DNA from: Bryoerythrophyllum caledonicum
Taxonomy: Eukaryota; Streptophyta; Bryopsida; Pottiales; Pottiaceae
Assembly: GCA_963971425.1 (NCBI GenBank)
Contig: OZ020518.1
Location: 4,538,263 to 4,602,262 of the forward strand
Length of the DNA stretch: 64,000 nt
Direction: 5' to 3'
The position numbers and the translations under genes were made by a program. The notes below the pieces were generated by a model. It had not been told where the DNA came from. It saw only the letters and a program-made list of their open reading frames with translations, and ran no database searches. The first letter of the stretch is position 1, and each line of letters starts with the position of its first letter. Positions 15,488-63,880 of the stretch are shown here, piece after piece.

Positions 15488-16414
15488 TTAACCCCTAGGA
15501 GCCCAAGTGTATGTGGGGCGTAGATTTTGGATTTTGGGCAGGTTCTTAATACTCGAAAAAAATCTTTTTTTTAAACTCTTATAATAGATTGTCCCTCATA
15601 AGAGCTCCATGGAGGTATTTTTATTATTACTTTTGGATTCAGGGTTTGAAAGTTAGCACCACTCAAAGTTAGAAATGGGGACTCCGGGTAGCTCCAAAAT
15701 TTTGCTAGAAGTCTCTATTGACATTGAGATTTTCCATTCATGTAGAGAATATTGTTTTCTTTGAAGATATAAAAAAAAAATCATGTCTTTAGTGTAGAAA
15801 ACCATTTTAACTCAAGTCAAACATTTCTACACATTTCGGGCAAGCGGGGGAAAAAACTTCATCTTTTCCATATAAAACCTGGAGATCTTCATATTTTTCA
15901 CTTTTTATTTTCTCTACAACAACATGTGGTGTAAACCTTCTCATTAACCGTTTAGATTATCATTCTAAAACATATTAAATTCTCAAAAAAATAAAACGTG
16001 AATTGACAATTTTTGAGCGCCCACTCCTTGGACACTTGTTTTGAATATGCTACACCCCTTCTTTACCTCTAAAAATTGGTGTATACCAAACTCACATCAT
16101 ATTCAACACAATGGTAAAAGATTTAGACCTACTGTAATGCAAAAGTTTAATACCAAATGAAGTCAAAGTTTGTTGATCCACTTAGCGCAGGGAAGAAAAT
16201 GAACCATCTTCTTGACTTCAAACACTATAATCTTTTAATCCGTGCGGTTGAAGTGTATGAAATTTTGTGAGCATGTTATTTAGTAAGCCTTTATGGAGAT
16301 CCTACGGTCAAAAGGATAAAAATAAGTTTTTGTTTCCTTCCTTACTCATTGCACTAGAATCAACAATTTTGAAGTGTTTTTGGTGTGAAATTGTCACGGG
16401 CTTTTAGGCGTTGA
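15488..16414 (+). mobile_element. TTAA-flanked MITE, family B copy 1
   Basis: TTAACCCCTAGGAGCCCAAG to ACGGGCTTTTAGGCGTTGA. About 13-bp inverted ends (consensus CCCCTAAGAGCCC), 927 bp. The body shares GCTAGAAGTCTCTATTGACA and CTCCACTCCTTG-type landmarks with 36729-37646. Confidence 0.85.
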
Positions 16415-17324
16415 AATATCTACGTGCACATGCAACCCACCTTTACTATCTAGTCGACACATTCATCATTTTCAATATCAAGGATGGTGGAGAGAGCGAT
16501 GAGAGGCCAAGAAAACCAAACCTATTTTTTTTTTTAAACACTTGGCAAAACATTTTTTGTAGTGATGCATGATCAATGGTCCGACAAACTTATAAATTAG
16601 AGTAAATGGTTCTTTCTTCAATTAGCACCAAATGTAATTGAAGATGTCAATATGTTAGTCAATTGTAATAATATGTTTTATGCAAGAAAATCTATGCTTT
16701 AGGGATAGTTTGCACTTGGACTATCAATCAATTGTTTCTATACATGTAAGATATTGTTGCAAAACACCACCCATATTCTAAAGGATTGGAAGTGCCAAGT
16801 TTGCCTATGGCAAATTGATGTATATTTATGTATATTCTTTAATTTTATAAAGTTGTGGTTTGTCTTCTTTCCATATCCAAGTCCTTATTTCTTCTACTCT
16901 TTTTTCTTGCAAATTGTTGTTTTCCAGAATGCACTCAAATTCTTCCTCACTTTTAATACTCTACACTAAACAACAAGTAAAACTTTCTCCAATTGGCATT
17001 TAGCATACGGATTTGTCACTACGCCTAATACATAGTTCACAATTAGTATCCATGTTCATATTTAGTGTACACTACACTATACGTCATATTTAGTGTGGTG
17101 GAAAAAGTGTCGTCAACAACACAAATCAATGTTTGATGATTTTAAAGGAAAGGGTGGCATAGAAAAAGAAACCCCTAATAAACAATTCAATATTGTTGCC
17201 CACTAGGTTTGAATGCTACATGCTACATATGATACCTCCATGTACTACACCGTTCACTGAATATAGTGTAGAGGTATAGGTAATGTGGATGAAAATTGAG
17301 GTGGACCACATCAATTTTGGTTAT

Positions 17325-19040: not shown

Positions 19041-22000
19041 TTAGCCTTCGTAGCGGCGGGCAGGCGAGTTGGTGGAGGCGAGATTCTCGTACGCGCGCGC
19101 ACGGCGCACGAAGTTGCGATTCGCGGGGCTGTCGTCGACGGAGTTGTCGCTGTCGATGTCGGCCGACTGGCCCTTGGAGAGGCGCTGCAGCAGCCGCTCC
19201 TGGTTCTGCGCCTCCGTGCGGTGGGAGCGGGGGTGACTCGACCCGGCTTTCCGGTCCTGGCAACACAACAAAGGAGTTGGTTGAGTCAATGGAGCAACAA
19301 CGACAATATGCTCTCTCTAGAACTAAAATCAGCTCGAAGGAGAGGAAGGTGGGTGATCTCCCGCAAACACTGAAAGATAGCTAAAACTCGAGTTGAGAAA
19401 CCACCAACTCTTCCATTGACTGAATTGAAGGATAAAGACCACCACGCTCTTCTCTTGATCTCAAAACTATGTTGAGCGAGGCACGAGTAGGGACTATGAC
19501 TTCACAAACAACTCTAAAATTCATCAGGGTTGATCTAGTGTAAACTCTCTCTTCACTCTCACAGAGAGCAAGAACTGCTTTGACTTGAATTCAGAGACCT
19601 CCAAGCTCTTCCATTGACCTACTTGAAGGATAAGAGCACTTGATCTACGAACTATGTAGAGGGAGGAAAGAAGAGTCAAAAGAGGGCGTATCTTACTGAA
19701 ACTTTGGGTGACTTTAGAAGAAGAGTGGGATGGATATAGAAGAAGAGTGGGATGGATATAGAAGAAGAGTGGGATGGATATAGAAGAAGAGTGGGATGGA
19801 TATAGAAGAAGAGTGGGAGGATGATTGTTCACGTACATCGCGGAAAGGAAACTCTTCGGCCTCGAGCATGTGGACGACATGGCCCATTTTGGGGCGTTTG
19901 AGCGCGTCGGGGTCGACGCAGCGCAGAGCCACCAGAAGAGCCCTCTTGAGAGCTCGCGAAGTCGGCTTCACTTCCATGCACGGATCCGCCACTTCCTCTG
20001 AGCGCCTGTTGCCCACCATCTGCTTCAGCCAGTCCACCAAATTGATCTGCACATGTACAACCAAGTCAACAACTTAGCTAGATGATCGCTAGATTACACC
20101 TTCGACAGGGTGATGATAATGCCACAACCTCTCCTGCGGCGCGGTTGTAATCCACAGGGTCCCGGCCTGTGATGATCTCCATGAGCAGCACCCCGAAGCT
20201 GTACACATCACTTCGCTCATTCAACAGCCCAGTATTTGCATACTCTGGCGCCACATATCTGCACAGGACGTCAAACCTCAGAACCTCAATTGTCACAGTT
20301 TACATAAACAAGCTAAAGTTGGTAGCACAAGGAGATGGTATACCCAAATGTTCCCATGACACGAGTGGTGACGTGACTCTTTCCCGAGCCAAGCAGCTTT
20401 GCAAGACCAAAATCCGAGACCTTGGCGTTCCATTGCGCGTCCACCAGGATGTTGCTGGACTTGATATCTCGGTGAACCACCTTCGGCTCCAAAGCCTCGT
20501 GCAAGTACGCCAATCTGAATCCAAAAAAAAACAGAATAAACCGTTAAACGTCAGTCGGAAACCGTGTAGACAGGCACGTATTTTACTCTGTAGCTTATAA
20601 AAAATGTAATAAAGTTTAGCAAGACTTACACTTTTGGATTGAAGATTCTCCGACTAACATCGTTCATTTGGAGGTCATATCAATATCTCAACCTTATCTT
20701 GTTCAAATACGACACCAGACATGGAGAATACTGTGGCCATATCACAAGACCTAGACATTTGAAGGGCAATGAAGGCATTGCAGATGCTTACCCTTTTGCG
20801 GTGCCCATAACGATCCGCATGCGCGCTTCCCAGGGAAGCGTGTTGGTCTGAGACAAGGGCCCGTGCAGCCACTGCTCCAAGTTTCCGTTATCCACGTACT
20901 CATACACGAGCATCCTGGAAAGAAAAGCAACAGAAGTTAGTACAATTACTTTCTTGTTTTGAGTGGAGAGTGGGCTATGTGATGGTTTTTACCGGTGAGC
21001 ACCTTCCGCACAGTATCCCAAGAGGCGCACCAGGTTTTTGTGTCGAACGCGTCCGATGGCCTCCACTTCCACTCTGAACTCTTTCTCAGCTTGGCCCCTG
21101 ACATAATCCATAACCAATGCCTCGGATCAGAACTGATTGCAGAGATAACTTAAAGCAGATTCACAGATCGTACAAACCAACCCATTTCTAGAGGAACCAT
21201 CTACACAGAACGCACAGGTTACAACGATTACGAGGAAGATTGTGAGTCATGGCGACAAAGAGCCTTACAACCAAGATGAGGAAGCATCTTATGACCCATG
21301 CTGTTGAGGAGATTTTCCACGGCAAACCAGAATACATGCAGAGGAGACAACATTTCTGAGGCTGTATACGAACTGACCATCTCTAACGGTATCATATCCA
21401 CACAGAACGGACGCGAAGACGTGGTGATTACGACCAGGAGGACGAGGAAGGAGATTACGATCCATAATATTACCTGTGTTGAAAAAAATTATTTTAATGT
21501 CGGCAGAGATCACTGCAACGACAGTTTTACTGTGATGAGACACGTAACGGACGTGAGGACGTACTGATTACAACTAGGAAGAGGGAGATTACGAGGCATA
21601 AGCGCACCTGTTATTGAGGAGGTTTTTCACGGCAATGAGGGTGGAATCCGGCAGCTGGCCGCGGTACACGATGCCATAGCCGCCCTCCCCAAGCACATTG
21701 GCATCTGCGAAGCTGTCCGTGGCGGCCTCGAGCTCGCGGAGCGTGTACCAGTGGCCCCACCCTAAATGCGAGACCTCGGGAGCGGCCGAGACCGGCGAGT
21801 CGATGCTGCGCGTGGAGCCCGACCCGCCCGACAAGCTCAGGAACGAGACCTTGTCGTAGTTGTTGTTCGCCTCGAATTTCAGGGAGCTTTGCTTCTCCAC
21901 CTGCTGGTGCTTCTCCACCACCTCCACCGCCTCGTCGGCGCTGCTCTTCCAGACGACGGGGTTCTTGAAGCTGGAGCCTTTGGTGTCGCCCACGTGCACG

Positions 22001-22353
22001 ACGCCCTTCTCCATCGCGGTCATGGCCGCATTGTGGTCCTTCTCCTCCGAGATGGTGAGCAGCACGGAGTCCGGCTGCGGCAGGTACGTGTTACCCACGC
22101 GGTCGATCTTCACCTCCTTGATCATCTCCCTGGAGCTGCTGTCCGACAACACCTGCCCATGAAGCGGCAGCTTCTCGTGGCGCGCCTGCTTGTTGGAGCC
22201 CCCCCGCCGCTTCGCCACCACACAAACCCACAGCAAAAGCAGCAGCGTCGCCACTATCACCACCGCCACGCACACCCCGATCACCGCCCACAGCCTCAGC
22301 CCAAACACCCCCGTCCGCTTCGACAACTCACTCGTCATCCCACTCGACGCCAT
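19041..22353 (-). CDS. Receptor-like serine/threonine kinase (At1g01540/At4g01330-type), 7 exons
   Basis: Exons 22353-21608, 21097-20993, 20914-20792, 20514-20344, 20258-20129, 20046-19837 and 19256-19041 have consistent phases and GT-AG borders, giving 566 residues. A short N-terminus ([14 protein letters not shown]) and one membrane span (about 21-47) precede a 150-residue linker, the clade signature [20 protein letters not shown] (192-211) and the kinase: glycine loop GEGGYG 222-227, Lys243, HRD 339-341, DFG 359-361, APE 385-387. All catalytic residues are present and it is an RD kinase, so likely active. There is no LRR or lectin ectodomain. The tail after PFRD (exon 7) is basic and polar, ending NSPARRYEG. 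The GC-rich exon 1 throws off long antisense ORFs. Ligand and targets are unknown. Intron 3 holds half a MITE and intron 6 a 22-bp tandem repeat. Confidence 0.95.
19390..19690. repeat. Two copies of an intron-associated repeat in kinase intron 6
   Basis: Two stretches (about 19399-19490 and 19595-19680) share ACCTCCAAGCTCTTCCATTG-like text, then AAGGATAA, then ACTATGT. Related text occurs in introns of the NDUFAF6-like gene (about 12225-12330), in introns of the SAXO-like gene (about 60890-60970 and 61340-61525) and in intergenic DNA at about 38645-38880. Confidence 0.55.
19716..19819. repeat. 22-bp tandem repeat in the last kinase intron
   Basis: About 4.7 near-identical units (AGAAGAAGAGTGGGATGGAT plus AT) end about 17 bp from the exon 6 donor at 19836/19837. 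The near-perfect identity suggests recent expansion. Confidence 0.9.
20543..20790. repeat. Left half of foldback MITE family D in kinase intron 3
   Basis: Begins near CCGTTAAACGTCAGTC and continues through TAAAGTTTAGCAAGACTTAC and TTCATTTGGAGGTC, matching the left arm of the 13655-14067 element. It reaches the exon 3 donor region and the right arm is absent. Confidence 0.6.
21098..21607. repeat. Kinase intron 1 with internal duplication reaching exon 1
   Basis: Text around 21290-21330 (GTTGAGGAG..TTTTCCACGGCA) repeats the exon 1 end at 21610-21640 (ATTGAGGAGG..TTTTTCACGGCA) about 310 bp away, and the flanking GATTACGA-rich text repeats too. The intron seems to have grown by tandem duplication that included the last ~30 bp of exon 1, leaving a decoy exon end in the intron. 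Confidence 0.55.
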
Positions 22354-22931
22354 CCCTCCCAAAACAAAACAAAACAAAAACAAAACTCCCCAGATCTACC
22401 AACCACTCACTCACGGTGGCCAAGTCACCGAACTAACGCCCGGCATTGCACGCCCCCTACTCCACCATCTCTCCAAACACCAGATCCACCACTCCACACC
22501 ATGTCACTCCCTCCAGCCACCAGCCATGGCCCCCAACAACAGCATTGATCGATACTACAGAGAGAGCTCGCGATTGAGACGTGGTGGCCGAGTCGCGGGC
22601 AAAGCGAGGAGCGTGGGGAGAGCAGCGCTCACGGCCCACTCAGCGCCATGGAAGCGACTGTTAGAGACGCTGTCAGTGCAGCTCAAGAAAGCGGAGCCTG
22701 CTGCTCTGCGAGTCTGCCTCACTCCAGTCCACTCGCTGGGCCCCACTTCCTGCCTGCTCCCATTATTTTCTATTGGCTTTTGCTCATTACGCTCAATTCT
22801 TTCTTTCTTTCTCCTTTTCTTTTCCTTTTTTTTGAAAAAAAAAATTGCACAAAAACTAAACGAGTTTGGATTGCAAAAACGGGGAACTCGACAACAAAAG
22901 CACGCGAGAAGCAAAAGAGTATTGGAGCTCC

Positions 22932-23654
22932 TTAACCCTTAAACTCCGAAGGAGCCAGAAATTGGCTTCTCAGATGACATTGTTGGATGATAATCAACGT
23001 AAACAATTGTTTTTCATCCAATTTTAGTTTTAGGAGAGTTTCTTGTATGTACAAGCATTAGATGATGATGAAACTGGCCTCATTGAGGTAATCATGTTAT
23101 ACGCAAGAAAAGAAATGCTTGTGACACGGATCTCAATACAGTGAAATTGAGAAACTTCTAGCTTTAGCTCTAGATCTGAATTCAAGCCATCAAAATGATA
23201 TTTTTTGAATTTGAGTCCAACGAATGAAATGAAGCTAATGATGTCTAGTTTCCATACGATTTTGAGAATTAAAAAAAATACGTAAAATTGAATAAGTTAT
23301 TGCTATTTGAACTTGGACCTATAACCGTGGTTCTAATTTTAGCCAGACATGGAACTTTCATTTGCACCACAAGTTTTGGCACTATAATGTCCAGCTTTGG
23401 TGAAATATTCATAATTTTTTAGCATAATTTGTATTTTTAATATGAATTTTCTTCACTTTTTCTTCAGAAAATCACAATTAATTCAAATTTACACCAAAAA
23501 ATCTGTGATTTTTGTAACATAATTGAGACATATGATCTCATCTCTGGAAAAAAAAATTAAAAATTCCACTTGTAGTTGATGAGAAACTAGAGCATACAGT
23601 TGATTGAAAATTTAGATTGATGCCACGATCATAGGCTCCGTCGTTTAAGGGTCA
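22932..23654. mobile_element. TTAA-flanked MITE (family C) inside the tandem array
   Basis: Left end TTAACCCTTAAACTCCG, right end GGCTCCGTCGTTTAAGGG followed by a decayed TTAA. It sits in the TTAA of the array motif GGAGCTCCTTAACCC, and the array resumes directly after it. Related internal sequence is at about 27780-27950 and, inverted, 62300-62705. Confidence 0.75.
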
Positions 23655-24317: not shown

Positions 24318-25264
24318 TAATGGAGCTCCTTAATCCATACCATGTGCTTGCCTTGCCTCCTACACAACACCTTGTAGTAGCCCATATGCTAAATTCATTT
24401 ACTAAGTAACCATTTCGTTGCAGATGAAACTCATTCTCGTCAATGGACGGTAATTTCATCCGTGTACTTATGGGTCTATTGGCTTTTGCTCATTACATTG
24501 AATTCTTTCTCTCTTTTTTCCTTTTTTTTGGGCACAAAACCAAAACAAGTTTGAATTTCAAAAATGGGGAACTAGACAACAAAAGCATGCTTGAACCGGC
24601 AGCACGGGAAGCAAAAGATGAATGGAACTCCCTAACCCACACCACGTGGTTGCATTGCCTCCTACACAGCGCCTTGTAGTAGCCCCAATTGAACATTATG
24701 TTGAATGAATTCTTTCGCTAGGGCCTGAGTTACCATCCTTTTGTGGATGAAATGCATTTTTGTTGATGGACGGTACTTTCATCCATGTACTTCTGGTTCT
24801 ATTGGCTTTTCCTCATTACGCTAAATTCTTTCTTTCTTTCATTTTTGGCACAACACCAAAACGAGTTTTGAATTGCAAAAACAAGGAACTAGACAACAAA
24901 AGCACGCCAGAGCCAGCAGCACAAGAAGCAAAAGACTAATGGAGCTCCCCTAACCCACACTATGTGGTTGCCTTATCTCCAACACAGCGCCTTGTAGCAG
25001 CTACAATTGGACATTACGCTAAATTCTTCCTTTCGCTAGGGCCTCACTAACCATGTTGTGGATGAAACACATTCTCGTCGATGGACGATATTTTCATCCA
25101 TGTACTTCTGGGTCTATTGGCTTTTGCTCAAGACGCTAAATTCTTTTGCTACTACAATAGGGGTTGAGTAACCATAGGGTTGAACATATTGTTACTGAGT
25201 TACTCTAGGTTAATGAGTGACATGATGCAAATGAAGATTGTTCTCATCGATGGACGTCGTTTCC

Positions 25265-25543: not shown

Positions 25544-27333
25544 GTCGTTTCCATCTTTTTTTTCTTCCAAGATTCCTTATATTATTACACCACTATTTTT
25601 TTTTTAACGTCGACTTAGAGGTTGATTGGACCTTTGCTTTTGGAAATTTCTTTTAAATTCTCCACTAAGCTTGGTGAGAATGATGATATGACAAGAACAT
25701 TCTTTTTATTTTGTCGATGATTTGTGGGCTTTTTGTTATATTCTGGTAGGATTCGTTTTTGCATTGATGGGTAACACAGGAGGTCTTCTTTTGTGGGTTT
25801 TTCATTGCGATTTTGCTTTTTGAATTCTCCTTTTCCCATGTATGTGGAGGTTAACACACCAAGAGATCTTCTTTTTCTCTGCTTTTTAATGCTTTTTCAG
25901 TTGCTTTTTTTTTAAAAATATGACTTATGTTTGCTTTCTGAAATATAATAAACTCTCCTGGAATTCATCTTTGGCGCCCACTGAGCTTGTGAGGATTAAC
26001 CCCTAAATTTCCAAGAGGCCCCTCGGGGGACTCTAGAAGGTTTGGGCAAGTTCCTATGGTGTCATTTTAAAACAATTTTCTTCTATATTTTTTATTTAGA
26101 TGGATACTACTAAAAGCTTTGTGTGAGTCCAATTTTTTCCTAAATCCAACATTTAATGAAAAAGTTACAGGGTTTTGAAGTTCACATGGGAAGAGCGGGC
26201 GCGTCACGCAACTCCAAAAACTTCTGCTAGGACACTCTATTGAATGTGACATTTTCAATTCTAGCTGATAATATTTTTCCTTCCATATTGTCAAAAAAAT
26301 CTCTTGTCTTTACTGAAAAAAACATATAAATCCAAGTCAAACATTCACACACATTATCACACATCGTCGGGCAAGGTACCAAAAAAACTTCTTCTTTTCC
26401 ACATAAAACTTTGAGATCATCATATTGTTTACTTTTTCTTTTTTCCGCAGCATTATGTGGTGCAAGTCTTCTTATTGACTATTTGGATTCTCATTCTAAA
26501 ACATACTAAGTTCACAAAAAAATATAACGCGAATTGACAATTTTTGAAACCTCCACTCCTTGCACAATTTTTTGGAATATGCTACACCCTTTCTCGACCT
26601 CTAAAAATTGGAGTACAAGGAGCTAATATCATGCTTAACATGATGGAAGTTAATTTAGACCTTGTGTAGTGCAAAGTTTTGATACCAAGTGAAGTCAAAG
26701 TCTGCTGATCCACTAAACGCAGGAAAGAAAATGGACCGTTTTCTTGACTTCAAACACGATAAACACGCAATTAAGCAATTATGCACTTGGCAAAGTGCGC
26801 TATTTGGCGCTCAATAATAACAAGATTTTGAGCGGAAATGTGTTTTGAAAAAAATTAAATTAGGAAATCCCTATATCTTCTTTGTTATGTTTTTGTAACA
26901 ATTTCATTAAATATTGGTTTCTTGATGTGTACATATTAAGTGAATACTTTTCATTATTATGCATAATATATGATTATAACATTTTGTTCTTATTCCATGT
27001 ACAAAATTACATTGACCATGTATTTATAAGAACCTATTTATACACATTTTGTTTCATGAGATGATTTTCAGTGTCGTGCTACAAATACAATTTGTTTTAG
27101 GAGATATAATGATAATGTACGCAATACAATGATAAAGTGTGTGGTTTAGCACTGTATATTTATTATATATATATACATACAGAATATAAATATTGAATAC
27201 TACAAATATCATATACTATAATTAAACATTCCATCTCTAAAGCGAACATATGAATCACACTATACTAGTCACCTAAACATCATTTATGCCTAGGTACGGT
27301 ATGACTCAAGAGTCTTCATCATCCTGTGGCGAA

Positions 27334-27420
27334 GCGACTCTCGCAACGACTCCCGCAACGACTCCCGCAACGACTCCCGCAACGACTCCCGCAACGACTC
27401 CCACAACGACTCCCATAACG
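27334..27420. repeat. 12-bp tandem repeat (CGACTCCCGCAA)
   Basis: About seven units, the last ones drifting to CCCACAACG and CCCATAACG. Both strands read as ORFs because 12 is a multiple of 3; the (TPAT)n and (ESLR)n peptides they give are not evidence of a gene. Confidence 0.9.
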
Positions 27421-28189
27421 TGTTCCATGGCCACAATACTAGCTTCGACGCCGCGTCCACCGCGCTCCACCAACCGTATTGCTCCCAAGGATAACGTTGA
27501 CTGGAAGCGATGGTGCCATGATGCCATATGCAAGCAACTTCACCATGATCACAACACATATATAATTGTCAATACGGTGTACGCCTCTCTATAATGAAAG
27601 ACAACATCCAACACTTTCTTTCTTAAAATTCACATCGTAAATTGTTTCCTACATGAAATACGTACGGTGGTTGAAAATAGAAATCTTGATGGGGATGAAA
27701 ATAGAAAAAGAGGATGATAACCAACGGATGAAAACAATAGTAGATGGAAAACCACAATGGATGAAAATGAGGATGAAAAAAGAGGATGAAAAAAGAGGAT
27801 GAAATGCCAAAAAAATTCAAATTGGAATGGAAACTAAGCTTCATAAACTTCATTTCATTAGTTGGACTCAATATCAAAAAATATCATTGTAATGACTCAA
27901 ATTCAGATTTGGTGCTGGAGCTAGAATCTAGGAAATCGGAAGAATTTCTGCAAATCTTCACTGCGGTGAATTCAGCAACTTTTGACGATTTTTAGAAAAA
28001 AGAGAAAAAATGAAAAAAATCTGAAAAAAATGTGAATGATACCTCCAAAGTCAATCTACAAGGAAAAAAAAATTTCAAGCTGTTTTGCATTGTCAAAAAT
28101 GAGTTATAGGCGTTTCCGTTTCGCCCAAATCTATGGAAAAAAAACTCTTTTTTTTTTTTTTTTTTTTTTCCCCCCCTTACACCGTAGCA

Positions 28190-28930
28190 ACTCCAGATGA
28201 TTTGCCGGGCAGGGTATCATCACAACAAGGTATCAACAAGGCATGGTACCATCCGGGTATCCTGGTGGTGGACTAAGGTCGTGAGGGGTGTGCGTACGCA
28301 GGGAGTTTTAGAGGGAGAGGGAGAGACAACGAGCGCAAGGGGATGGAGAGAGAGGGTTAGAGTTAGAAGGAGAGGTGAGATTAGAACTAGAAGAGAGAGA
28401 TAGGGTTCTGAGGAGGCGTGAGGTGGCGGCTAGGAGGGAGGGAAGGTGGGTGAAGGCGAGGAAGTCGACGACAGGTGAGGACGGCAAGGAAGACGACCAA
28501 GTGAGGATGGCGAGGAAGACGATCAAGTAAGGACGGCGAGGAGAATGACCAAGTGGAGAGCAAGACGACCACGCGGAGAGCAAGACGACCAAGTGAGGAG
28601 GAAGATTTGGTGCAGGGAGGGGGCGGCTGCTCCAGCTATGCTGCAACAGCCCATGGCTGCTGTTTGGATTTAGGTCGTGCAGGTTTAGCACGAGGAGTAG
28701 AAGCAGCAGCCAATTGCGAGGTGCAGCAGCCTAGTTGCAAGGTGGAGCAGCCTCGTTGCGTGGAGCAACAACCTAACACCCCATGGCGAAACCCTAACAC
28801 CCTAACACCTCATGCTTGAAACCCTAACACACCATGGACACCACTATCCTTGCGCACTTGAAACCCTAACCACCTAAGACACCCCCGCGTACGCACACCC
28901 TCGCGTGCGCACACCCCTGAGGTCAGTTTT
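28190..28930. other. Purine-rich to GC-rich stretch inside the 4.4-kb element
   Basis: A GGAGAGAG- and AGGACGGCGAGGAAGACGACC-type run (28310-28610) is followed by repeated AACCCTAACACC blocks (28770-28870) and GCGTACGCACACCC. No protein is recognised. Composition is sharply different from the AT-rich flanks, so it is either captured DNA or another old insertion. Confidence 0.4.
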
Positions 28931-29035
28931 CCAAACATGGAAACGGCGGCACCGCCAAAATTAGGGTTTTATATATTAGGGTTTCCAGATCTGGAGTCTC
29001 AAGATCTAGGATCTCCAGATCTAGGATTTGGTATA

Positions 29036-30010
29036 AAAGGAACATTTTAAACCAAGTTAGACATTTTCACACATGTTGAGCACTTATATTCTACATAAAA
29101 CCAGAGATCTTCAAATTTTTAAAAAATTAAAATTTAATCAGAATATGTGGTGAAAACCTTATTATCATCCGTTTGGATTATCATACTACAACATACTTTG
29201 TTCACAAAAAAATAAAACGTGTAATCGTAATTTTTCAAAAGATTTTAACTTCCACTCCTTGCACAATTGTTTTGAATATGCTACACTCCGTTTCTATGCC
29301 TAAAAATTGGTGAATATAAAACCAACATCATGCTGAACACAATTGTAAACAAATTAGACCTTGTGTAGTGCAAAGATTTGATACCAAGTGAAGTCAAAGT
29401 CTGTTGACCTACAAAATGCAAGAAAGAAAATTAACCATTTTCTAAATTTCAAATACTATGTTTCTATCTGTGCGGTGGATTGCAGCATAAAAGTATGGTG
29501 ACTTTATATAGATGCATGGTTTGAGATCTTACAGTTGGAAGTCCAAAATGAGACGTCAAAATTTGATGTTTTTGCCACTATTTCGTTGTGGCAATTTTGG
29601 GGTGTTTTCTTGATGAAAAAACGCTTGGGATTTTAGGGGTTAATTCGAGCGGATACTTATGTCAATTGAAATTTCAATATGCCCTTCATAACAGGTTTTT
29701 GGAGGTATCCAATTTATCGTATTTGCAATCATGGTTTGAAAGTTAGTTCATACCTAATAATGGGGGCTTATGAGTTTTGTTAGAAGTCTCTATTGTTGTT
29801 AAGATTTTCCATACACATAAAGGAAAAAATAAAACTTTTAGAATTGACTAGAAAATAATTATTGTCTTTTGTGTGAATTGAAATTCTAAATTAGAGTCAA
29901 ATGTTTTCTAGCAAGGGATTGGAAAAAACTTTACCTTCTCTAGTACAGAAAACTTATAACTCTTCAAAGCATTCCTTTTTGATATATTGGATAACTATGT
30001 TTTGAATAAC
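29036..30010. repeat. Rearranged pieces of family B inside the 4.4-kb element
   Basis: 29036-29646 matches the right half of a family B MITE, ending TTTTAGGGGTTAA. 29650 to about 30000 matches the left half without its end. The order is right half then left half, so these are two truncated copies or one permuted copy. Confidence 0.6.
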
Positions 30011-30048
30011 TATGTTTCGGATACTTTGGTCTTCATAGAGGGAGACCA

Positions 30049-30480
30049 TTGAATCAAGCGGTGCGTGGGGCGCAACAACCGGAACACTACCATGTTCAGG
30101 AACGAGTCGAAGAAGGGACAGGGGATGAAGTTAATCACGACATTTTTCCACCATTCAATCCACAATCTGATAACAATTGTGGACAATTTGTAGCCTTAAG
30201 CGTTGATAGAGCTGAGGTTGAAGGTGGTGTACCGTTCTATGTAGGGAAGGTGATTGAAGATGGGATAAATCAAAGGAGTCATTAGATAAAGGTTTGTTGG
30301 TAGTGGCCCATCATGCGAGGGGAAAATGTTGACAAAACAAGGCGCACCGCACAACGGTATGCAAATTGCATGGATACATTCTAGGAGTCCTCATGTGGAC
30401 CCACAGCTGGATAGAGAATGAGGCATGCAATTTTTTATGGATAGAGAAAGAACGATGACTCGCGCTTTCTGGACAAAAAG
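30049..30480 (+). pseudogene. Decayed coding fragment inside the 4.4-kb element
   Basis: An open stretch (30049-30285) contains CGQFVALSVDRAEVEGGVPF then YVGKVIEDG. After a stop, the same frame goes on with W.WPIMRGENVDKTRRTAQ RYANCMD-type text to about 30400, with several stops. The text looks like a real folded protein under past selection, not chance, but I do not recognise the family. It could be a captured host gene piece or a remnant of the element's own gene. Confidence 0.45.
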
Positions 30481-32019
30481 GCAAAATGTATTCGGATCAC
30501 AAGTTGAAAGCAAGATTTGAATCCTTCGGTCCGCTAAGGCTTACATATCAGAATATATTGCAATGCAAACCAAAGAAATTGACAACTACCAGTTCCAAGC
30601 AGCCTTGAATGATATGTAGTAGAGGAAGATACTACAATGAGTGTATGGTAATTGGTAATTGGCATGTAGGGTATGTGCAAGAGTAGTATATTGTAAGGGT
30701 AATGTAAGACGTTTGGTGACAAATTACTAATAAATCCGAGAGGTTTTTCCCATTGATTAATTACATCACCAAGTACAAGAATATACGCATTATATTAATT
30801 TCCTTCCTCTTATGTATCATGTTCTATATGTAATATATTCATGTCGATTGGCATTTACTGTATAGTGTTCAAGTTTACGTAATTGCATACAGTACTTGAC
30901 AAGCTTCTTTCCAAAAACATAATGTTGAATATGAAACAAATATTCATCAAATTCTAACCAAGTTCCATATTGAATTTGTCAAAAATGCCAGAAAAAAGCT
31001 TGTTAAATTAACATTTCTGGTTATACGGAAAATTGTTCCTAGATCTTAAATTTTATTTCTAAAAACAAGAATTAAAAAAAACCTAATTGGGTTTTTTCAA
31101 CGCATTGGCCGCCATTGTTACTAAGTGCACTTTTAAAAGGCCAAGTGCATAATTGCTTAATTGCGTGTTGATAATATTACAATTTGTGTGGTCAAATTTT
31201 ATGAAATTTGTTATGTACGTTACTTAATAAGTCTTAATTGACATCCTACGGTTAAAAATAGGAGTAAAAGTTTTTGTTTTGTCCATACACATTGCACTAA
31301 AAAAATTAGTTTTTAAGTGTTTTTGGAGCAAATTTGTTAAAGAAATTTAGGGGTTGACATCATTGTAAGAACTGATTGTTACATTATTTTTCCCCCAATA
31401 AACCAATCTTATGGGCATACCCTACATTATGGTCACTTTTGTACATAATTAATTCATAATGGAGAATGTCCAATTTTTTTTTGGAAAACTCAATAGATTT
31501 GTCTAGATGATACCCATGTCAAGGTCATACCCATATAACGTCTAGGTGATATCCGAGTAATACATAGGTGATACCCATGTAATATACAAGTGATATCCAT
31601 GTTATATCCATGATACGTAGGTGATACTCATTGTGTCCAAACCACTGTGATTTGGAAAAGAAATAGTTCGGTAGGATGTGTCGAAACTTACCAATGCTCA
31701 CCTTATTTACATATAAACCACATACTTTTGCCAAAAGGCATTTATTTATGACCTGTTTTTACAATAAATATTCTAGTATCGGATGGTTTGGTGCTTCAAA
31801 TTAAATTGAATGAAGTGTTGCTTTTTATGTATTTTGCGCATTCCACATGGCAATGGAAAAAGTGTGGTTTCTTGTCATGCCAAAAAATTGTTATACTTTT
31901 GTAATTCTTTTATTTCCAAAATGTTCTCTAATTCTGCTTCTCTTGTAGTTGGATTTACAAAAGGAATGTGGTATACACTACATTATTGTAGTTTGGAAGC
32001 AGGGCCTTCAGATATTGAT

Positions 32020-34865: not shown

Positions 34866-36024
34866 TTAACCCCTAAAGTTCCTTGACAATTTCTGTCCAA
34901 AACTAGTCCAAAACTGCCATAGTCAAACATGGCCGCAATAATCACATTATTTATAAGAATTCTCAACTTTTAACCGTAAGATCTAAAACTAGACTCATGT
35001 ATAATAATCCTGTAAAATATTAGTTGCAATCCACCGCACGGATGTGAAGATTATAGTGTTTGAAGTGCAAGAAGTAGTTTTTTTTCCCTCTTGCCGGACA
35101 AAGTCAGCTCACTTTGACCAAGCATATCTTCTAGTTTTTATAGTACATTGTGTTGGAAACCATTACCAATGTAAAGAATATGATGTTAGCTAAGTGTGGG
35201 CAAAATTTGAGGTCATTTCGAGGGGTACATCATGCTCAAATAAATACTTTAGTGAAAGGCGGTATAAAACAATGCAAATGACTACAAATGAAGTGAGAAA
35301 TTATTTGCTGAATATGAATTTACAAATTTAGAAATCCGTACAGTTGAAATGTGGAATTTAATTTTTTACTTATTTTAGATATTTAAAAAAAAAACAGGTA
35401 AAATCTCTCATTTTAATGAATTTATTGAATTATTCAAATATTATAGGTGAGGGCAGGGCTTCAAAATGGGGACCCTTCAAGAAATGAAGGGCCACATCAT
35501 CACCCACTCCCCTGTGCGGGATCCGCCCAGCTCCTCGGGGATGGCCCGCCACTGCAAGGCGTCGTTTTGTTTTTTTTTTCTTCTTCACACGTGCCGTCTC
35601 TTTCAGTACCCGGGCCCCGCCACAACCCCTGCCATGCACCACTTTATGCTATTTTTTAAAAATTTCTGTTTATCCCTTTTCTTGGAATTTGTGGGATCTT
35701 CCCTTCCACTATTCTTCCCCTTGATTTGGGCTGCCCCACCCTCCCTCCACTCTTTGTGTCCCTACTTATTGCCCCTCTTTCACACTTGTGTTTCATTGGT
35801 TCCCAGGGGTGCCCATGCTGCCGAGCCTCCCCATTTTTGACAATAGGTGGTACTAACTTTCAAACCGTAAATCCAAATAAAAATTTAAAAATACCTCCAC
35901 GAAGCTCTTATCAAGGCCGATCTACAATAAAAGTCTTTTTAAAAAAGGATTTTTTTTCGAATTTTAGGAACCTGCCCAAAATGTGAAATCCCCCTGAAGG
36001 AGACTCTGGTCCTTTAGGGGTTAA
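34866..36024 (-). mobile_element. TTAA-flanked family B-like MITE with a GC-rich insert
   Basis: TTAACCCCTAAAGTTCC to GGTCCTTTAGGGGTTAA, both TTAA present. The flanks are family B in reverse (about 34870-35440 and 35850-36024). 35446-35845 is CT/GC-rich foreign text with no gene recognised. Confidence 0.65.
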
Positions 36025-36728: not shown

Positions 36729-37646
36729 TTAACCCCTAAGAGCCCAAGTGTACGTGGGGTGTACGTTTTGGATTTTGGGCAGATTCCTAAAATTCAATTT
36801 AAAAAAAAAAAAAAACTCTTGTACTAGATTGTCCCTGATAAGAGCTCCATGGAGGTATTTTTATTATTTTTGGATTCATGGTTTCAAAATTAGTACCACT
36901 CAAAGTTAGATATGGGTACTCCGGGCACCTCCAAAATTTTGCTAGAAGTCTCTATTGACATTGAGATTTTCCATTCATGTAGAGAATATTACATTCCTTG
37001 AAGATATCCAAAAAAAAATTGTCCTTAGTGTAAGAAAACATTTTGACACATTTTTACACATTTCGGGCAAGTGGGGAAAAAAACTTCATCTTTTTTACAT
37101 AAAACCTAGAGATCTTCATAGTTTTTGCATTTTATTTTTTCTATGACAACATGTGGTGTTAAACCTTTTAATTGACTGTTTAGATTATCATTCTAAAACG
37201 TATTAAATTCTCAAAAAAATTAACTGTGGATTGATTATTTTTGAACCTCCACTCCTTGCACACTTATTTTGAATATGTTACACCCGTTCTCTACCTCTAA
37301 AAATTGTTGAATACGGAACTAACATCATGCTTGACACAATGGTAAAAGGTTTAGACCTTGTGCAGTGCAGAAATTTAATACCAAGTGAAGTCAAAGTCTG
37401 CTTGCTGGTCCACACAACGCGGGGAAGAAAATGAACCATTTTCTTGACTTCAAACACTATAATCTTTCAATCCGTGCGGTCAAAGTGTAAGAAATTGTGT
37501 GAGTATGGTACTTGGTAAGTCCTCATGGAGATCCTACGGTCAAAAGGATAAATATAAGGTTTTGTTTCCTTCCTTACTCATTGCAAGAGAATCAACAATT
37601 TTGAAGTGTTTTTGGTGTGAAATCGTCACGGGCTCTTAGGGGTTAA
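36729..37646 (+). mobile_element. TTAA-flanked MITE, family B copy 2
   Basis: TTAACCCCTAAGAGCCCAAG to CACGGGCTCTTAGGGGTTAA. Perfect 13-bp inverted ends and perfect TTAA flanks; the best-kept member of the family. It encodes nothing recognisable. Confidence 0.9.
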
Positions 37647-38041
37647 AGGGTTAATGCATGAAATTCTCTCTCCTTGAAAAACAATCATGTCACTTCTTAT
37701 GTCATTAGTTTTTCCCCTCCTTCCATCAATGATCTCTCCACCCGAGGCCTGTTTCATAATCCAGGACCATCATTTGGACCAAACCTGAACATCCATAAAC
37801 GATACTGAAGAGCCCAGACTGTTGTCCTGGGCCTCCAATTAACACCTTATCCAATCATCCAGGACATGCATCAGTGCCTGTGACAACGTAGAAAAAACTC
37901 TGTTTTCAGGTCAACTGCACCCATTTGACCCTCACATCATAGCAACACCTTCGCAGTAAAATTAAATCTGAAAAATAACAATTCAGGTTGACTCCCAAAT
38001 TTTTGAAACTCTACTGTCATCATGGAGTTCAATGAAAGTAA

Positions 38042-41287: not shown

Positions 41288-42084
41288 ATAACCCTTTGCC
41301 GCCTAAGAAGCCCGAAATGGAACTCTGGAGGTGCTAAAACTCAATTTGCATGAAATCCATGAGGAATTAGGCTTCTAAATATGAGGTTCAGATTTGCGCA
41401 CACATTACATGAACACTCTCCAACAATCAAATCATGATTTGGATTTACAGAACTCTTAGAGAAGCTAGGAATACAATACAAACTACATCAAATACACTAA
41501 AATACAGAGAACACAATGAATACCATGCCACATACTATGTTGTATTTCACACATGCACATTGATTTTGGTCTTAAATTTTGATTGAACTTCGTCTTTTAG
41601 ACATTCTTCATTGTTTTGTGATTGATGACCTCTCTCCTCACATACAAAACTCCCGTCATGATTCGTATAAGGTTGGAACATTTTCATATACAATCAAGTA
41701 GACAAAAGCAAAAAATTCACCAGTAATTGTGTAAAACTATTTTCTTCACACATGATATGTCAATGCGAAGCTATCAACCTAGTGCACATGTGGACCGCTC
41801 TTATTCAAAGTAAAAGAAATCCTGCAAGAATCTATTGATGGTTAAAGTAGTACACCCTCCAAAATCCACAGTTCTCACTAGCAATACACAGTAACTTTAA
41901 ACACTATAATCTTTTCCATCAACCGTTGGATGTTGTGCAAAACTTCCCCAAAGTTCACGTCATGGATTAAGTTCAATTTTGTAAGGCTAGGTACTAATAT
42001 TAGGCATTGTATTTTCATCAAATCCAGTCCAAAGAAAAAAAATGTTGGTTTTTCCAGAAACATAGCTGGGCGGTAAAGGGTTAA
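41288..42084 (-). mobile_element. TTAA-flanked MITE, family A copy 2
   Basis: Inverted copy: left end CCCTTTGCCGCC, right end GGGCGGTAAAGGGTTAA. The right TTAA is intact and the left reads ATAA. The body matches 1221-2026 in reverse. Confidence 0.85.
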
Positions 42085-48374: not shown

Positions 48375-49148
48375 TTAACCCTTTAGTGCCCATGTCATGT
48401 TTCTCCAAACCAAGATATGTGCTGATTTTTTTTCTCCTTTGAACCAACTTTGATGGAAATATAGTGCCTAATTTTAGTATCCAACCTTACAAAATTGAAC
48501 TCAAACCATGACCTAAACTTTTGTGAAAAATTTGCACAACATTCAACGGTTGATGGAATAGATTATAGTGTTTATAGATACCATATATGGGTAATGAAAA
48601 TTGTAGACATTGGAGGGTATACTACTTTATCCATCAATAGATTCTTGCAAGAATTTTTGTGCTTTGAATAAAATTGGTTCACATGTGCACTAGCTTGATA
48701 GCTTCGCATTGGTATGTCATACGTGAAGAAAACATTTCTACATGATTATTGATGAGTTTTAAAACTTTTATCTACTTGATTGTATACAAAAGTTTTGTAT
48801 GGAATGAGAGTAATCAACAATCACAAAACAATGAAGATTCTTTGAAAGACAAATTTCAATCAAAAATTTAAGACCAAAATCATTTTGCAAGTATATGAAA
48901 TACAACATAGTATGCGGCATCATATTCATTGTATTTCAGTGTATTTGATATATTTTGTATTGTATTCCTAGCTTTTCCAGGAGTTATATAACTCCAAATC
49001 ATGATTTAGTTTTTGATAAGTTTTCATTTAATGTGTGCGCAAATCTGAACTTCAAATTTCACAACCAAATTCCTCATGGATTTCATGCAAATTGAGTTTT
49101 AACACCTCCAGAGTCCCATTTTGGGTCTCGTCGGCACTAAAAGGTTTA
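48375..49148 (+). mobile_element. TTAA-flanked MITE, family A copy 3
   Basis: TTAACCCTTTAGTGCCCATG at the left, GGCACTAAAAGG then TTTA at the right. The body matches copies 1 and 4, including CAACGGTTGATGGAATAGAT. Confidence 0.85.
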
Positions 49149-52726: not shown

Positions 52727-53940
52727 TGTACAAAATATCCAACAATTTGGATATTTTTTGACATGGTGTCTATCATCTAGTACTATCACCTCAAGCATCA
52801 ATAACAACCTTCATTATGTAACACATTGTCGATATGAGTGTATCAGGCACATCTCTAGAGACTCCTTCCCATTCACGTTGAATGACTGAAGCGTTTTGCT
52901 CCAAAAAATCTGGCCAATACTTGTTATGAACATGGTCCTTTACAACTTTCTATAGATTCTCTACACGGTTCAAATTTGGGGAGTTAAGCGGCCAGTTTAA
53001 TTTTGTCATGCCATAATCTTCTCTCCACTTGTTAGGTAGGGAACTACGATGCACTAGAGCACCATCGTCTTTGAAAATCAAGTCATTTGGATGATCATGG
53101 AGGGAATAAAAGGTAGATAATGCTCCCTTGAATATAGTGTTCACAGAGTCAACAACAATTTTTCTACCTACAAGGATAATGACTACCGGAGACTTATAAT
53201 AGTCACTAAAAACGCCCCATATCATATCGGAAAGGCGACCGAACTTAAAGGTTAAACATAAACAATTCCATAAGTTTCTGTCGTAAACTTGACACCAAAC
53301 TCGTATCGACCGTGAATGCTTGCTGACCTCAAATAGTGATTCGTCCATCCATATGACATTCTTTCAAGTCCTCTTTTCTCCAATGTACATGAGCTTTAAC
53401 GAAAGCAAGCCTTTGTGCCTTGTGTGCATCATTGAGAAAAGGCTTTTTAACTGTAACACGATTGTTGAAGCCAAGAGCCTGAATGTATTGCCTCAATGTA
53501 CAAATGCAAACTTTTGTTGTCATTTAGGCCTAAATTGCAGCAACAGGTGCATGACAATCACCAAACACAAGGCGTTTGAGTCATCGCTTGTCACGGAAAC
53601 CAAGCTTACATCTTTTACATGTAGGCTTTGGAGAAACAACAGTACTACGAAGCTGATATTGCTTCATAAGAACAGAAACAATTTGACGGGCTATGCCTAA
53701 ATCACGTCCAATTTGAGCACCAAAGACCCCCGCTTCGTGCATATCAACAATGCAACCCTTTTCTTTTGTTGTGAGATTCCTCAATTTTATTGCAAACAAA
53801 GAACTAGCTACCAGCTCTCTTTAAAATGACACAATTCTACTTGAAAGAGGACACTCAACTAACCTTCCAATCTCACCTTATCTCTCTTTTGATTTGCCTT
53901 GGAGATATGTCATGGTGCATAAATACAAGAATATTGTACA
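52727..53940 (-). mobile_element. Dead Tc1/mariner-superfamily transposon
   Basis: Reading 53799 to 52791 on the minus strand shows a helix-turn-helix start (LTTKEKGCIVDMHEAG..IGRDLGIAR), then LGFNNRVTVKKPFLN and RLAFVKAHVHW, the first catalytic Asp in IWMDES, the second in FKDDGALVH, and NWPLNSPNLNRVEN with the final Glu, as in Tc1 DDE transposases, then a C-terminal tail. It is broken by about four in-frame stops and one frameshift beside IWMDES, with no complete frame. Ends TGTACAAAATAT and its partial inverse ATATTGTACA give about 1.2 kb, a normal Tc1 length. The right flank is TA and the left TA has decayed. Confidence 0.8.
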
Positions 53941-58228: not shown

Positions 58229-59482
58229 ATGGCGGGGGTTGTGAGGGACGCGACCGCGAAGGCGGACTTGGATGATGCGGTGAAGAAGCCGGGGAGTTTG
58301 GTGGTGGTGCACTTCTGGGCTTCGTGGTGCGAGCCGTCGCTGGCCATCGAGCCGCTGTTCGCGCAGCTCGCCGCCGAAACGCCTCAAGCGCAGTTCTTCC
58401 GTGTACGCGACGCTCGATTCCCATCGCTCCTTGCGCCGGTCTAGCTCAGGAACCCTGAACCTGTCTCTTCTGTTCGCGCAGGTGGAGGCCGAGGAGCAGT
58501 CCGACATCTCGGACGAGTACGAGATCGCCGCCGTGCCCCTCTTCCTCTGGATCAAGGTACGCCACTTGCACGTCTTCTGTGTTTCAAGTTTGGAGAGCAC
58601 AGTTTGTCAATGCCTTCGTGTTGTCTCTTGTACATTCATGTGTGCAGTCTTTGTGTTGGTTTCTTGTTATCTAGACACGGCCTTGCTTGTTGTCAGGATG
58701 GAGCGGTCGTGGACAAGATGCAAGGCGCGAACGCTCCGGACCTGGCCAAGAAGGTGGCCAAGTGGGCAGAAGAAGCCGCTAGTGGAAAGGACGTTTCCAG
58801 CGGAGCGAAGAAAGAGGCGGCGCCTGTTGCCGCTGCTGCAGCAGCTCCGGCAGCGGAAGTGGAGACAGGGAAGCTGCGCGAGCTCGTGAACTCGCACGAG
58901 GTGATGCTGTTCATGAAGGGGTCTCCGGAGGAGCCGCGCTGCGGGTTCAGCCGCAAGGTGGTGAACGTGCTACAAGACCAGGGCGTGGCGTTCGGCAGCT
59001 TCGACATCCTTAGCGACGAGGCGGTGCGGCAGGGCATGAAAGCCTACTCCAACTGGCCCACGTTCCCGCAGCTCTACGTCGCGGGCGAGCTTCTCGGCGG
59101 CTGCGACATCGTTCTGGAGATGAACGAGAGCGGCGAGCTCAAGGAGGTTTTTGCTGAGAAGGGAATTCTCCCGACAGAGAACCTGGAGACGCGCCTGAAG
59201 AAGGTCATCAACCAGTCCACCACCATGCTGTTCATGAAGGGAACTCCGGACGCGCCGCGCTGCGGCTTCAGCACCAAGGTGGTGAACGCGCTCAAGGAAG
59301 TAGGGGTCGAGTTCGGCAGCTTCAACATCCTGGAGGACGAGGAGGTGCGCCAGGGCCTCAAGACGTTCTCCAACTGGCCCACGTACCCCCAGCTCTACTA
59401 CAAGGGCGAGCTCCTCGGCGGCTGCGACATCGTCTTGGAAATGAAAGCCAATGGAGAGCTCAAGGAGGCTCTCAGCGAGTGA
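58229..59482 (+). CDS. GRXS17: Monothiol glutaredoxin GRXS17/PICOT type (Trx-Grx-Grx), 3 exons
   Basis: Exons 58229-58402, 58482-58556 and 58697-59482 join in phase to give 344 residues. A thioredoxin-like domain (about 1-108) has a WCEPS active site (33-37) in place of WCxxC. A lysine- and alanine-rich linker (about 104-140) leads to two monothiol glutaredoxin domains with CGFS at 165-168 and 272-275, each followed by SNWP(T)xPQLY and GGCDIVLEM. Family role: cytosolic/nuclear iron-sulphur cluster binding as glutathione-bridged dimers, and iron and redox homeostasis. Angiosperm GRXS17 has three Grx domains; two, as here, is the arrangement in animals (GLRX3) and many algae and fungi. ATG 58229 matches the family N-terminus; an in-frame ATG at 58166 would add an unsupported extension. 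It converges on the SAXO-like gene. Confidence 0.96.
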
Positions 59483-60171: not shown

Positions 60172-61607
60172 TCATGGGTAGCATTGGTGGTGACTGACAG
60201 TGCTGGTAGGCATGGGCCGCTTCATGACGGGGCACATGGTCTTGTCCTTGTTCGGCGGCATCCGGAACTTCTCCCCGTATGTCGTTACGCCCTCCAGCGG
60301 CTCCACCTTAGCGCCCCACCTGATAGGCTTCACCGTCCTCGCACTATCCGACGGCCCCTGATTGTAGTAGTAGTCCCCATACGTCGTCCTGCCGTCGAGG
60401 TCCGCTCCCTTGATGTTCACAACTCTAACATCCTCTTCTTTCGTCTTGTAAGGTTTCATCCCGGGCGTGGTCGGGTCGCAGACCTCGCAGAGGGACTGCT
60501 TGGGCGGGAAGAGCTCCGGCTTCCGCCGCATCTGCTTAGGTTCCTTGAAGTTCGTCGTGTAGGTGGTCCTGTCGTCGAACTCTGCCTTCACTGGGACGAA
60601 CCCCGGGGGCTTGAACGAGGTCCGGGGCTCGGATTGCCACTTCTGGTAGCAGTCCATGTAGACTGTGTGACCGTAGAATGTCGGTCCCACCTTGTGGGAC
60701 GTCTTTGGGTTCCACAGCTTCGCCGGAAACACGGGCTTCTTGTCAAACAACTCGGTGTAGTCTGTGTGGAGAGGCCTATTCTCATGAAACTTAGATCACT
60801 ACATCCCAGATGCACAGCAGCTGAATCTCTTCACAAGGTATGTTTCTTGCTACTAGAGTTATTTGTAGCGTCTCAACGAGATAGCTCCTCTCTTGATTTA
60901 CAATACTACTCTGTCCTCATCCTTGATAGCTATTACATCACTGGAAGAGCTTGGTGGTCTCTCAACTAGATTCCTTCAACTACGTGTGGATAGTTAGTGT
61001 GTCTTGTATGATCGAAGCGGACAAGCTGCATAGTTTGGGAGGGAGCTTACGTGGGATAGTAGTTGCCCATAGGGTAGCACCCGGGGAGACTCGTCATGTC
61101 TTTCATTTTCCTGGCGGTTCCCGAGCGCATCTGATAGAATCTGTCGTTGTACTCGGTGGTGCCTTGCATTCGGATGTCCTTTCCTGTGATGTTGAGCGGC
61201 TGGAACTTGGAGGATCCCCCCGGCACGCACTTGTGCGTTCCACAGGTGCATGTCGTGCACACGCACGGGTGCGCACCCTACATGTAAATTCGGTACAATT
61301 CTCAAACTTTCACCCCCTCTTTTCGTATACTACTTCTCTTTCCTCACTCTTAATAGGTATTAGATCCATAGAAAGAGCTTGGTGGTCTCTAAAGTCAAGG
61401 AGAGGTCATGTTCATGGTAGCCACCTTCTTCCTCTTGGAGCTGATTACAGCTGATTTGGTTTTTTCAGATTTAAAAGAAGAGGTCAAAACTCATGGTACT
61501 CTTGCCTCACTTTGTGAATGATGGTCACTTACCAGGAGATCGAGGCAGCTTGGTGCTGCTGGAGGCTCCGGTTTTGGACATGATCCTGGGTCAAATTTCG
61601 GAGCCAT
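60172..61607 (-). CDS. SAXO: SAXO-like stabiliser of axonemal microtubules, 3 exons
   Basis: Exons 61607-61533, 61277-61051 and 60775-60172 give 301 residues. Exon 2 has the SAXO N-terminal cysteine motif CTTCTCGTHKC (32-42). Spaced repeats of the SAXO Mn type follow: TTEYNDRF, TDYTELF, TTYTTNF, TTYGDYY and TTYGEKF, each with lysine/proline-rich text, as in this microtubule-binding family. Known role: binding and stabilising doublet microtubules in cilia and flagella. In a plant this implies motile sperm. The exon 2 donor (CCCAC/GTAAGC) is good. The exon 3 acceptor (GAATAG/GCC) was chosen because it is the only one restoring the frame, and its pyrimidine tract is weak. Upstream TTTCATGAGAAT would be in frame only without the 2-nt phase. 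Both introns carry the shared intron repeat. Confidence 0.85.
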
Positions 61608-63880
61608 TGTTTGATCACGAACTCAGAAACTCAGGCTAATTTGAGGTTCCGCTTCTATCTTTTCTTGCAGATTGATATGACTATGAATTCCCCGATGAGT
61701 GATGGAAAACGAAAGAGAGAACAGGGTCGTCACATGGTCAAAGATTGGAAGGTGAAGCTCGAACTTGATGCCTGTCTTTCATTGATTCACACGTTCTGAG
61801 TTTTTTACTTTTGTTTGCTGCCTCTTGCATGCCTGTAAAACCTTTTCATGGAAATGTGCTTACTAATACTCAGATCGTATTGGGAAAGTGACCCACTTGT
61901 TCGGCGCCAGAGCACTTGTTCACATCTCGCGACGCAGAAGGTCAGTCTCTTCATATCTTGACCAAATACTAGGTGACTGTTCCTGGCCTTGAGCTCAAGT
62001 TTCAACCTCAAAATTCATCAGCACCATATCGACTCTACTATCTGCAAGATTCATGCCATCTTTAACACCGGCCAAGTTATATCATGTCTTTGGTTTCTTT
62101 GTTTATTTCTCTAATATGTTCAAAGGAATCAGACGTTTGTGTTTCCAGAAAAGACAAGTTTCTCTTCATTTTGGACTGAAGAGTATTCATAACATTCTAG
62201 GGCAGAGCCTATGGCCGTGGCATCAATCCCAACTTCCATACCACTGTGTGCACTATTTCTTTATTAAATATAGGTGGAATTTTTATTTTTATTTTTTTCA
62301 TGTATGAGAGCAAATGTCTTGCTTGTGTCACAAAAATTGCAGAATTTTTGGTGAAAGTTTGTAATTATTGTAGTCTTCTGAAGAAAAAGTGAAGAAAACT
62401 CATATCAAATACAAAATATGCTTTAAAATTCTGAAAGACTTACCAAAGGTGTACATGACAGTGCCAAAACTTGGGGTGCAGAAGAAACTTCCGTGTTCAG
62501 CTAAAATTAGTAAATCGGTCAACCATGGTTATAAGCCCAAAGTTCAAATTGCAATCAATTATTCAATTTCATGTATTTTTCAAATTTTTAAGCTGGGATG
62601 GAAACAAGACTTCATAAGCTTCGTTTCATTAGTTGGAATCACATTAAAAAAGTATCATTTGAATGGCTCAAATTCAGATTTAGAGCTAAATGCTAGAAGT
62701 TTTTGAAATATAGTACATTGGGATGCATGTCACAAAGATTTTCTTCTCTACATAAAACATGACTACCTCAACAAGGCAAGTTTCATCATCATCTACTACT
62801 TATAAATTCAATATACTCTCTAAAAAAGAATTGGATGATAAGATATCATTCACATTGATTATCATTCCCAAATTGTCATCCAAGAAGCCAATTCCCGGCT
62901 CCTCTGACGTTCTAGGGATACAGCCTAACGTCCACTTTTAGGTTGTTCGGGCATGCTAACCTCTGAAGCAAGCACTACAGGCCACCTCCAAGGAAATTTT
63001 GGAGGCGGAGTAAAATGAACATCTGCTAGAAACGGGGCTAACAAAATTGATGCGCCACTGGCAAACTATAGTGGCTTTTGTGAAGTGGGTTCACAATGAA
63101 TGTACCCTCTGTGTAAATGATGTTCTGCATTACCTATTACACTTGTAGATTCTCTTAGACCTTGTGAGCTCGTAGGCCTTACAGACGTAATTTCTCTTCT
63201 AATGGGTCAAGCTCACTTTTTGTTTATTCTTTTGCTCGCCACTTGCTTCAGCCTCTTTGCATTTGGTTCTAATAGTTTTATCTTCATTTAGAAATTATTC
63301 TCATAGAAAGATCTTCAAAGGAAGGCCGCTCTAGCACTACTTCTAAAATGTTAGGTTTGAAATGTCAAGTTTCCTTGTGATTTTATATGAATTGGTTTTT
63401 TGCCCTACATAAGGTATACCCCCATGACCGCCATGTCACGAGATGTGGCATCGAGGACCGCACCACATTGCGTAGTGTTAGCGTAGATTAGATAGTTCTA
63501 ATTTGCGATTGTTAGTGACGTGCGTTTGCCAAATCACATCCCTCAATGGATGTATTTCATCTGTTGGGATTTTGCATATATGTACATAGCGGTGCATATG
63601 CGCTTGACTTGATGTCTTTGTCAAGTCAAGCGTTGTGAGTGCATTTAGAGAGTGACTAGTCAATTCCTTGCTTGTAAGTGATGGTTTATCATTATTAAAG
63701 GCTCCTTATTCACTGTTTTCGCTTGCACTTGTTGACTCTCCCCTTGTAGAGTGCAAGACGCTTACTATTTTAGTGATACACTACATTCTCATTTGAGGGT
63801 GTGCTTAGCATAGTTGTATTTGGCTATGTTTTTTTGTTTATTTACGTTGGTTGTGATTCTTGATCTATTGTGTTTAGCGA
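61608..63880. other. SAXO-like gene 5' flank and repeat DNA
   Basis: 61608-62060 is upstream of the SAXO-like ATG; a plus-strand frame (to 61799) after a TTTCTTGCAG acceptor-like site reads MNSPMSDGKRKREQGRHMVK and could be a short exon, unproven. 62300-62705 is an inverted fragment of MITE family C. 63045-63170 is the dispersed repeat with CTCTGTGTAAATGATGTTCT. Confidence 0.35.

Follow-up and report, generated by a model that had tools for sequence, protein, structure and literature searches.

Sola is one of the seven superfamilies of plant DNA transposons with terminal inverted repeats (TIRs) listed in PMC10741241. According to the excerpted description in that source, Sola elements generate 4-bp target-site duplications, possess highly variable ends with TIRs of 11–1124 bp, mostly measure 2–9 kb, and are recorded from the moss Physcomitrella. 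Excerpts of PMC9033089 place Sola1 in Physcomitrella and Sola elements in two Capsicum species. The Sola2-type elements of two amoebozoans, as excerpted in PMC3627910, produce AT-rich 4-bp duplications, and some of them are devoid of most of the transposase region; these relatives have long 5' regions in common, the remainder being different. In Repbase practice, an element would be assigned to Sola if its first 11 bases matched the termini of an established Sola element (PMC4455052). A second kind of described system, the Pack-TYPE elements of plants, consists of non-autonomous elements with TIRs, a target-site duplication and a patchwork interior that includes fragments of host genes; in the excerpted text of PMC8903248 their duplications are 8 nt, 5 nt, TA, or mostly TTA/TAA.

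Here we describe an insertion of 4,408 bp (positions 26762–31169) in a 64,000-nucleotide stretch of DNA from the moss Bryoerythrophyllum caledonicum (contig OZ020518.1, positions 4,538,263 to 4,602,262 of the forward strand), hereafter referred to as the window and numbered from its first base. The insertion is very probably a non-autonomous DNA transposon of the TIR class that was moved in trans. Its features, and those of the older interspersed repeat that it interrupts (denoted F, about 0.9 kb long), are collected in Table 1.

Table 1. Features of the insertion and of the repeat interrupted by it, in window coordinates
Feature	Position	Strand	Evidence or remarks
Repeat F, left half of split copy	26208–26761	+	75–80% identical to intact F copies elsewhere in the window
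Target-site duplication, left copy (GATA)	26758–26761	.	Flank reading and empty-site alignment
Left TIR, 30 bp	26762–26791	+	30/30 exact inverse of 31140–31169
12-bp tandem array, 6.7 copies	27335–27414	+	Inside 105-codon open frame 27277–27594
Fragment of 110-bp interspersed repeat	27817–27926	.	81% identity; further copies at 23156–23265 and 62594–62698
GC-rich stretch (56% G+C), short tandem arrays	28171–28960	.	Base composition and repeat search
Inner copy of F, diverged, middle to end	29083–29542	+	74–76% identity over 29083–29479; 68% over 29418–29542
Start segment of F, placed after the end of F	29680–29908	+	Pieces of 69–85% identity; permuted or head to tail
Possible protein remnant	30010–30492	+	91 codons without a stop, followed by five TAG stops in frame within 30283–30444
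Right TIR, 30 bp	31140–31169	-	Exact inverse of left end
Target-site duplication, right copy (GATA)	31170–31173	.	Flank reading and empty-site alignment
Repeat F, right half of split copy	31174–31360	+	72–75% identity to three uninterrupted copies; resumes where left half ends

Borders of the insertion

The two ends of the element are perfect inverses of each other and differ inward of base 30. By comparison, when the region 26401–31500 (5.1 kb) was shuffled 100 times under a first-order Markov model, exact inverted repeats never exceeded 16 bases, the longest per shuffle averaging 12.3. Directly outside both ends stands the tetranucleotide GATA. Three uninterrupted copies of repeat F are present in the window (15488–16415, 36729–37647 and, in reversed orientation, 32909–32019), and when the two flanks of the element were joined with a single GATA, the resulting sequence aligned without a gap across the junction to all three. 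Consequently, 4,408 bp were inserted and 4 bp of the target were duplicated. A duplication of 5 bp (GATAA) is also possible, since the first base of the element and the base following the right GATA are both A; under this reading the ends lie one base out of register and mismatch at the last base. The 4-bp duplication with perfect ends is the simpler reading. The initial annotation had reported both the exact inverted ends and the GATA duplication, and the two observations are thus confirmed. It had further held that a split MITE proves the borders; the borders are proven by the three uninterrupted copies, but the identification of this repeat, which is about 0.9 kb long and has no established TIRs, as a MITE is not confirmed.

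The insertion is younger than repeat F, because F is split by it and because perfect ends are improbable at the divergence seen in F. Divergence from the other copies amounts to 20% in the left half of the interrupted copy and to 25–28% in its right half, and the chance that 30 of 30 bases would remain identical in ends diverged by 20% is about 0.1% (0.8^30). Further downstream, a reversed copy of F in pieces (34890–35990) lies head to head with the complete copy at 36729–37647.

A scan of the window for inverted pairs (exact 11-base seed, spacing of at most 9 kb, score of at least 14, duplication sought directly outside the exact outer edge) covered 131 pairs, 12 of which were flanked by a duplication of at least 2 bp and only one, that at 26762–31169, by a duplication of at least 4 bp, the scan being blind to elements whose outermost bases have stopped matching. 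Each end of the element is also adjoined by a GCACTT motif facing AAGTGC; a hairpin beside each end was rejected as a feature, its stability being no better than that of shuffled sequences (z = -0.5 and -0.7).

No second copy of the 30-bp ends was detected within the window, where the next best ungapped match carried 11 mismatches in 30 positions. The exact 30- and 22-base end sequences had no match in viral_contigs, nor did the exact 24-base end sequence in genome_contigs, but these misses say little, since neither is a plant collection. A search for the end sequence as text in the literature did not find it.

Comparison with known superfamilies

By published description, the element resembles Sola in its 4-bp GATA duplication (or 5 bp, on the alternative reading) and in a TIR and a total length that both fall within the Sola ranges given in the excerpts of PMC10741241. 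It differs in that a Sola-type DDD transposase was not found when its six frames were compared with Pfam, as is expected of a non-autonomous copy; being without a transposase, the element is not classifiable as Sola. Among the superfamilies in the excerpted text of PMC10741241 and PMC8903248, a 4-bp duplication combined with these ends fits Sola alone, which makes Sola a lead rather than a classification. We therefore tentatively regard Sola as the best fit to the measured features among the superfamilies reported from plants, an assessment to which we give slightly less than an even chance and which concerns resemblance rather than membership. The proposal in the initial annotation that the element matches no plant superfamily was too strong, in view of the 4-bp duplications, the variable ends and the moss record of Sola in the excerpts of PMC10741241 and PMC9033089.

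The remaining superfamilies agree less well with the element, whose ends begin AACACG. Mutator/MULE elements generate duplications of 7–12 bp and hAT elements duplications of 8 bp, against 4 or 5 bp here, and the ends of CACTA elements start with CACTA or CACTG. Tc1/mariner elements duplicate TA, whereas here GATA accompanies symmetric ends. In PIF/Harbinger, the duplication is TTA or TAA in most elements (PMC8903248, excerpt), unlike GATA. Helitrons, described in the excerpted PMC9033089 as producing no target-site duplication, contrast with the duplicated GATA and the long perfect TIRs of this element, even though exceptions to that rule occur in a Helitron2 group (PMC3627910, excerpt).

Alternatively, the element might belong, with unusual ends, to a different established superfamily whose duplications measure 4 to 5 bp, such as Ginger, Academ or a CACTA/Chapaev-like lineage; Academ and Chapaev-like lineages are counted among the superfamilies with duplications of this length. 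Ginger is likewise a plant TIR transposon, and its 4–6 bp duplications would accommodate the element, but its ends are TG...CA rather than AACACG and its TIRs of 40–270 bp are longer than the 30 bp observed. Were the duplication read as 5 bp, it would equal the 5 nt given for CACTA elements in the excerpts of PMC8903248, but the AACACG start is again not that of CACTA. We consider a placement in one of these superfamilies doubtful, while granting it a real minority share of the probability.

Interior and coding potential

The initial annotation depicted the cargo as a mixture of MITE pieces, a 12-bp tandem repeat, GC-rich foreign DNA and a protein-like fragment. Repeat pieces, the tandem array and a GC-rich stretch are all present, but a foreign origin of the latter is unneeded, because individual 1-kb segments in other parts of the window attain 59% GC. 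A phage blastn search with 26100–32000 returned two records of one phage, with 72% identity across 149 bases that fall within the GC-rich tandem array; the match was read as low complexity. Around the GC-rich stretch lie inverted arms at 28269–28299 and 28903–28933 (31 nt, 74%), perhaps an old nested element. Beyond the portion of the inner F copy listed in Table 1, fainter similarity continues to about position 29618, and the copy has a protein-level match to 34890.

Such an interior could have been gathered by a gene-capturing, Pack-type non-autonomous element, with the inner repeats, the GC-rich stretch and the possible remnant picked up elsewhere. The interior pieces at 27817–27926 and 29083–29908 do recur elsewhere in the window, GC content shifts abruptly from segment to segment (27 to 56%), and Pack-type exon shuffling has been found in all main plant TIR superfamilies (PMC8903248, excerpt). 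Like Pack-TYPE elements, the element is non-autonomous and has TIRs, a duplication and a patchwork interior, but its 4-bp duplication fits none of their reported values; the 5 nt of Pack-TYPE CACTA equals the 5-bp reading, but the ends are unlike those of CACTA. Moreover, no cargo stretch gave a confident match in Pfam or PDB, tblastn of 69 open segments of the element against the rest of the window recovered interspersed repeats only, and later nested insertions followed by decay would yield the same patchwork. Gene capture is thus an unlikely account of this element, and the gene-capturing family suggested in the initial annotation is not borne out by the window, which contains these ends only once.

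When all six frames of the element were scanned against Pfam, which may have no model for the relevant enzyme, no transposase was recognized, in agreement with the initial annotation; the sole row was DUF5957 (E 0.022, under cut-off). For the left open frame at 27277–27594, the Pfam rows were all under cut-off as well (SAP130_C, E 0.011; New_glue, 0.023; TALPID3, 0.26). A Pfam search with the possible remnant at 30010–30492 assigned no family (Njmu-R1, E 0.073, under cut-off), and against PDB it gave rows at E 0.7–0.8 only, or none. Its predicted structure had a mean pLDDT of 46, with no confident fold, and the peptide patterns used to seek relatives in viral_contigs matched 21 stretches and 1 stretch, none of which was confirmed. 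The five stops that follow its 91 codons are all TAG; TGA and TAA occur further downstream. Codon use was scored with a test whose training set was limited to two GC-rich genes, with the frame 60172–60795 left out and 36 intergenic open frames as the comparison. The remnant (30010–30282) scored mid-range, with 17 of the 36 intergenic frames lower. Neither the libraries searched nor codon use therefore lends support to the claimed protein-like fragment. An Rfam scan at the gathering score and an ARAGORN search both returned nothing.

The left open frame and the right-hand remnant could alternatively represent the first and last parts of the element's own transposase gene, interrupted by repeats, in which case the element would be a decayed autonomous copy. 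They share a strand and lie towards opposite ends of the element, whose size is within the Sola range, and the per-codon score of 27277–27591 tops 34 of the 36 intergenic frames. However, two other frames of that same segment outscore its open frame, the remnant scores no better than mid-range, neither stretch contains a transposase domain in Pfam, and no confident fold was predicted. We accordingly assign a low probability to decay from an autonomous copy.

Several further features were observed in the window. At 24423–25146, a 318-bp unit is repeated in tandem 2.3 times, and the arms of a long inverted repeat (41290–42042 and 48429–49146), 80–83% complementary, are separated by about 6–7 kb. 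The open frame at 58445–59482 contains two glutaredoxin stretches (Pfam E 3.5e-39). The frame 21589–22395 may be receptor-kinase-like; its Pfam rows are weak and unrelated. The frame 60172–60795 may be axonemal-protein-like, with no Pfam rows and only weak, unrelated rows in PDB. Such a pair would suit a land plant, perhaps one whose sperm swim. On the minus strand, an open frame at 52950–53363 has a weak DDE_3 match (E 0.0038, under cut-off) and is possibly the remnant of a Tc1-like transposase; Tc1-like elements have been reported in a moss and some angiosperms (PMC4054914, excerpt).

Proposed mode of transposition

On the preferred reading, that of a non-autonomous TIR element moved in trans, a transposase supplied by another genomic locus would recognize the 30-bp ends and excise the element by cut-and-paste chemistry. 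The excised element would then have been joined to a target inside the old repeat, cut with a 4-bp stagger at GATA, and gap filling would have produced the 4-bp duplication. The 30-bp ends could instead define a plant lineage beyond the seven TIR superfamilies listed in the excerpts of PMC10741241, with its own transposase, its own choice of a 4-bp target and non-autonomous members that gather unrelated cargo, but we judge this very unlikely. That no transposition took place, the structure being an inverted duplication or an assembly accident that fell in a repeat, is extremely improbable, since its presence as a single copy in the window is countered by the exact borders, by the duplication and by the three relatives that are uninterrupted at the insertion point.

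Returning to the element as a TIR transposon dependent on a helper, this insertion, seen in one copy within the window, otherwise looks like an ordinary, unremarkable jumping element. Its exact ends and the empty sites offer clean queries with which further family members and their transposase could be sought in the host genome. If the helper were a Sola-type enzyme, the element would add one more family to a superfamily that is seemingly uncommon in flowering plants (PMC10741241, excerpt); if it were an enzyme of another kind, the list of plant transposases would be extended.
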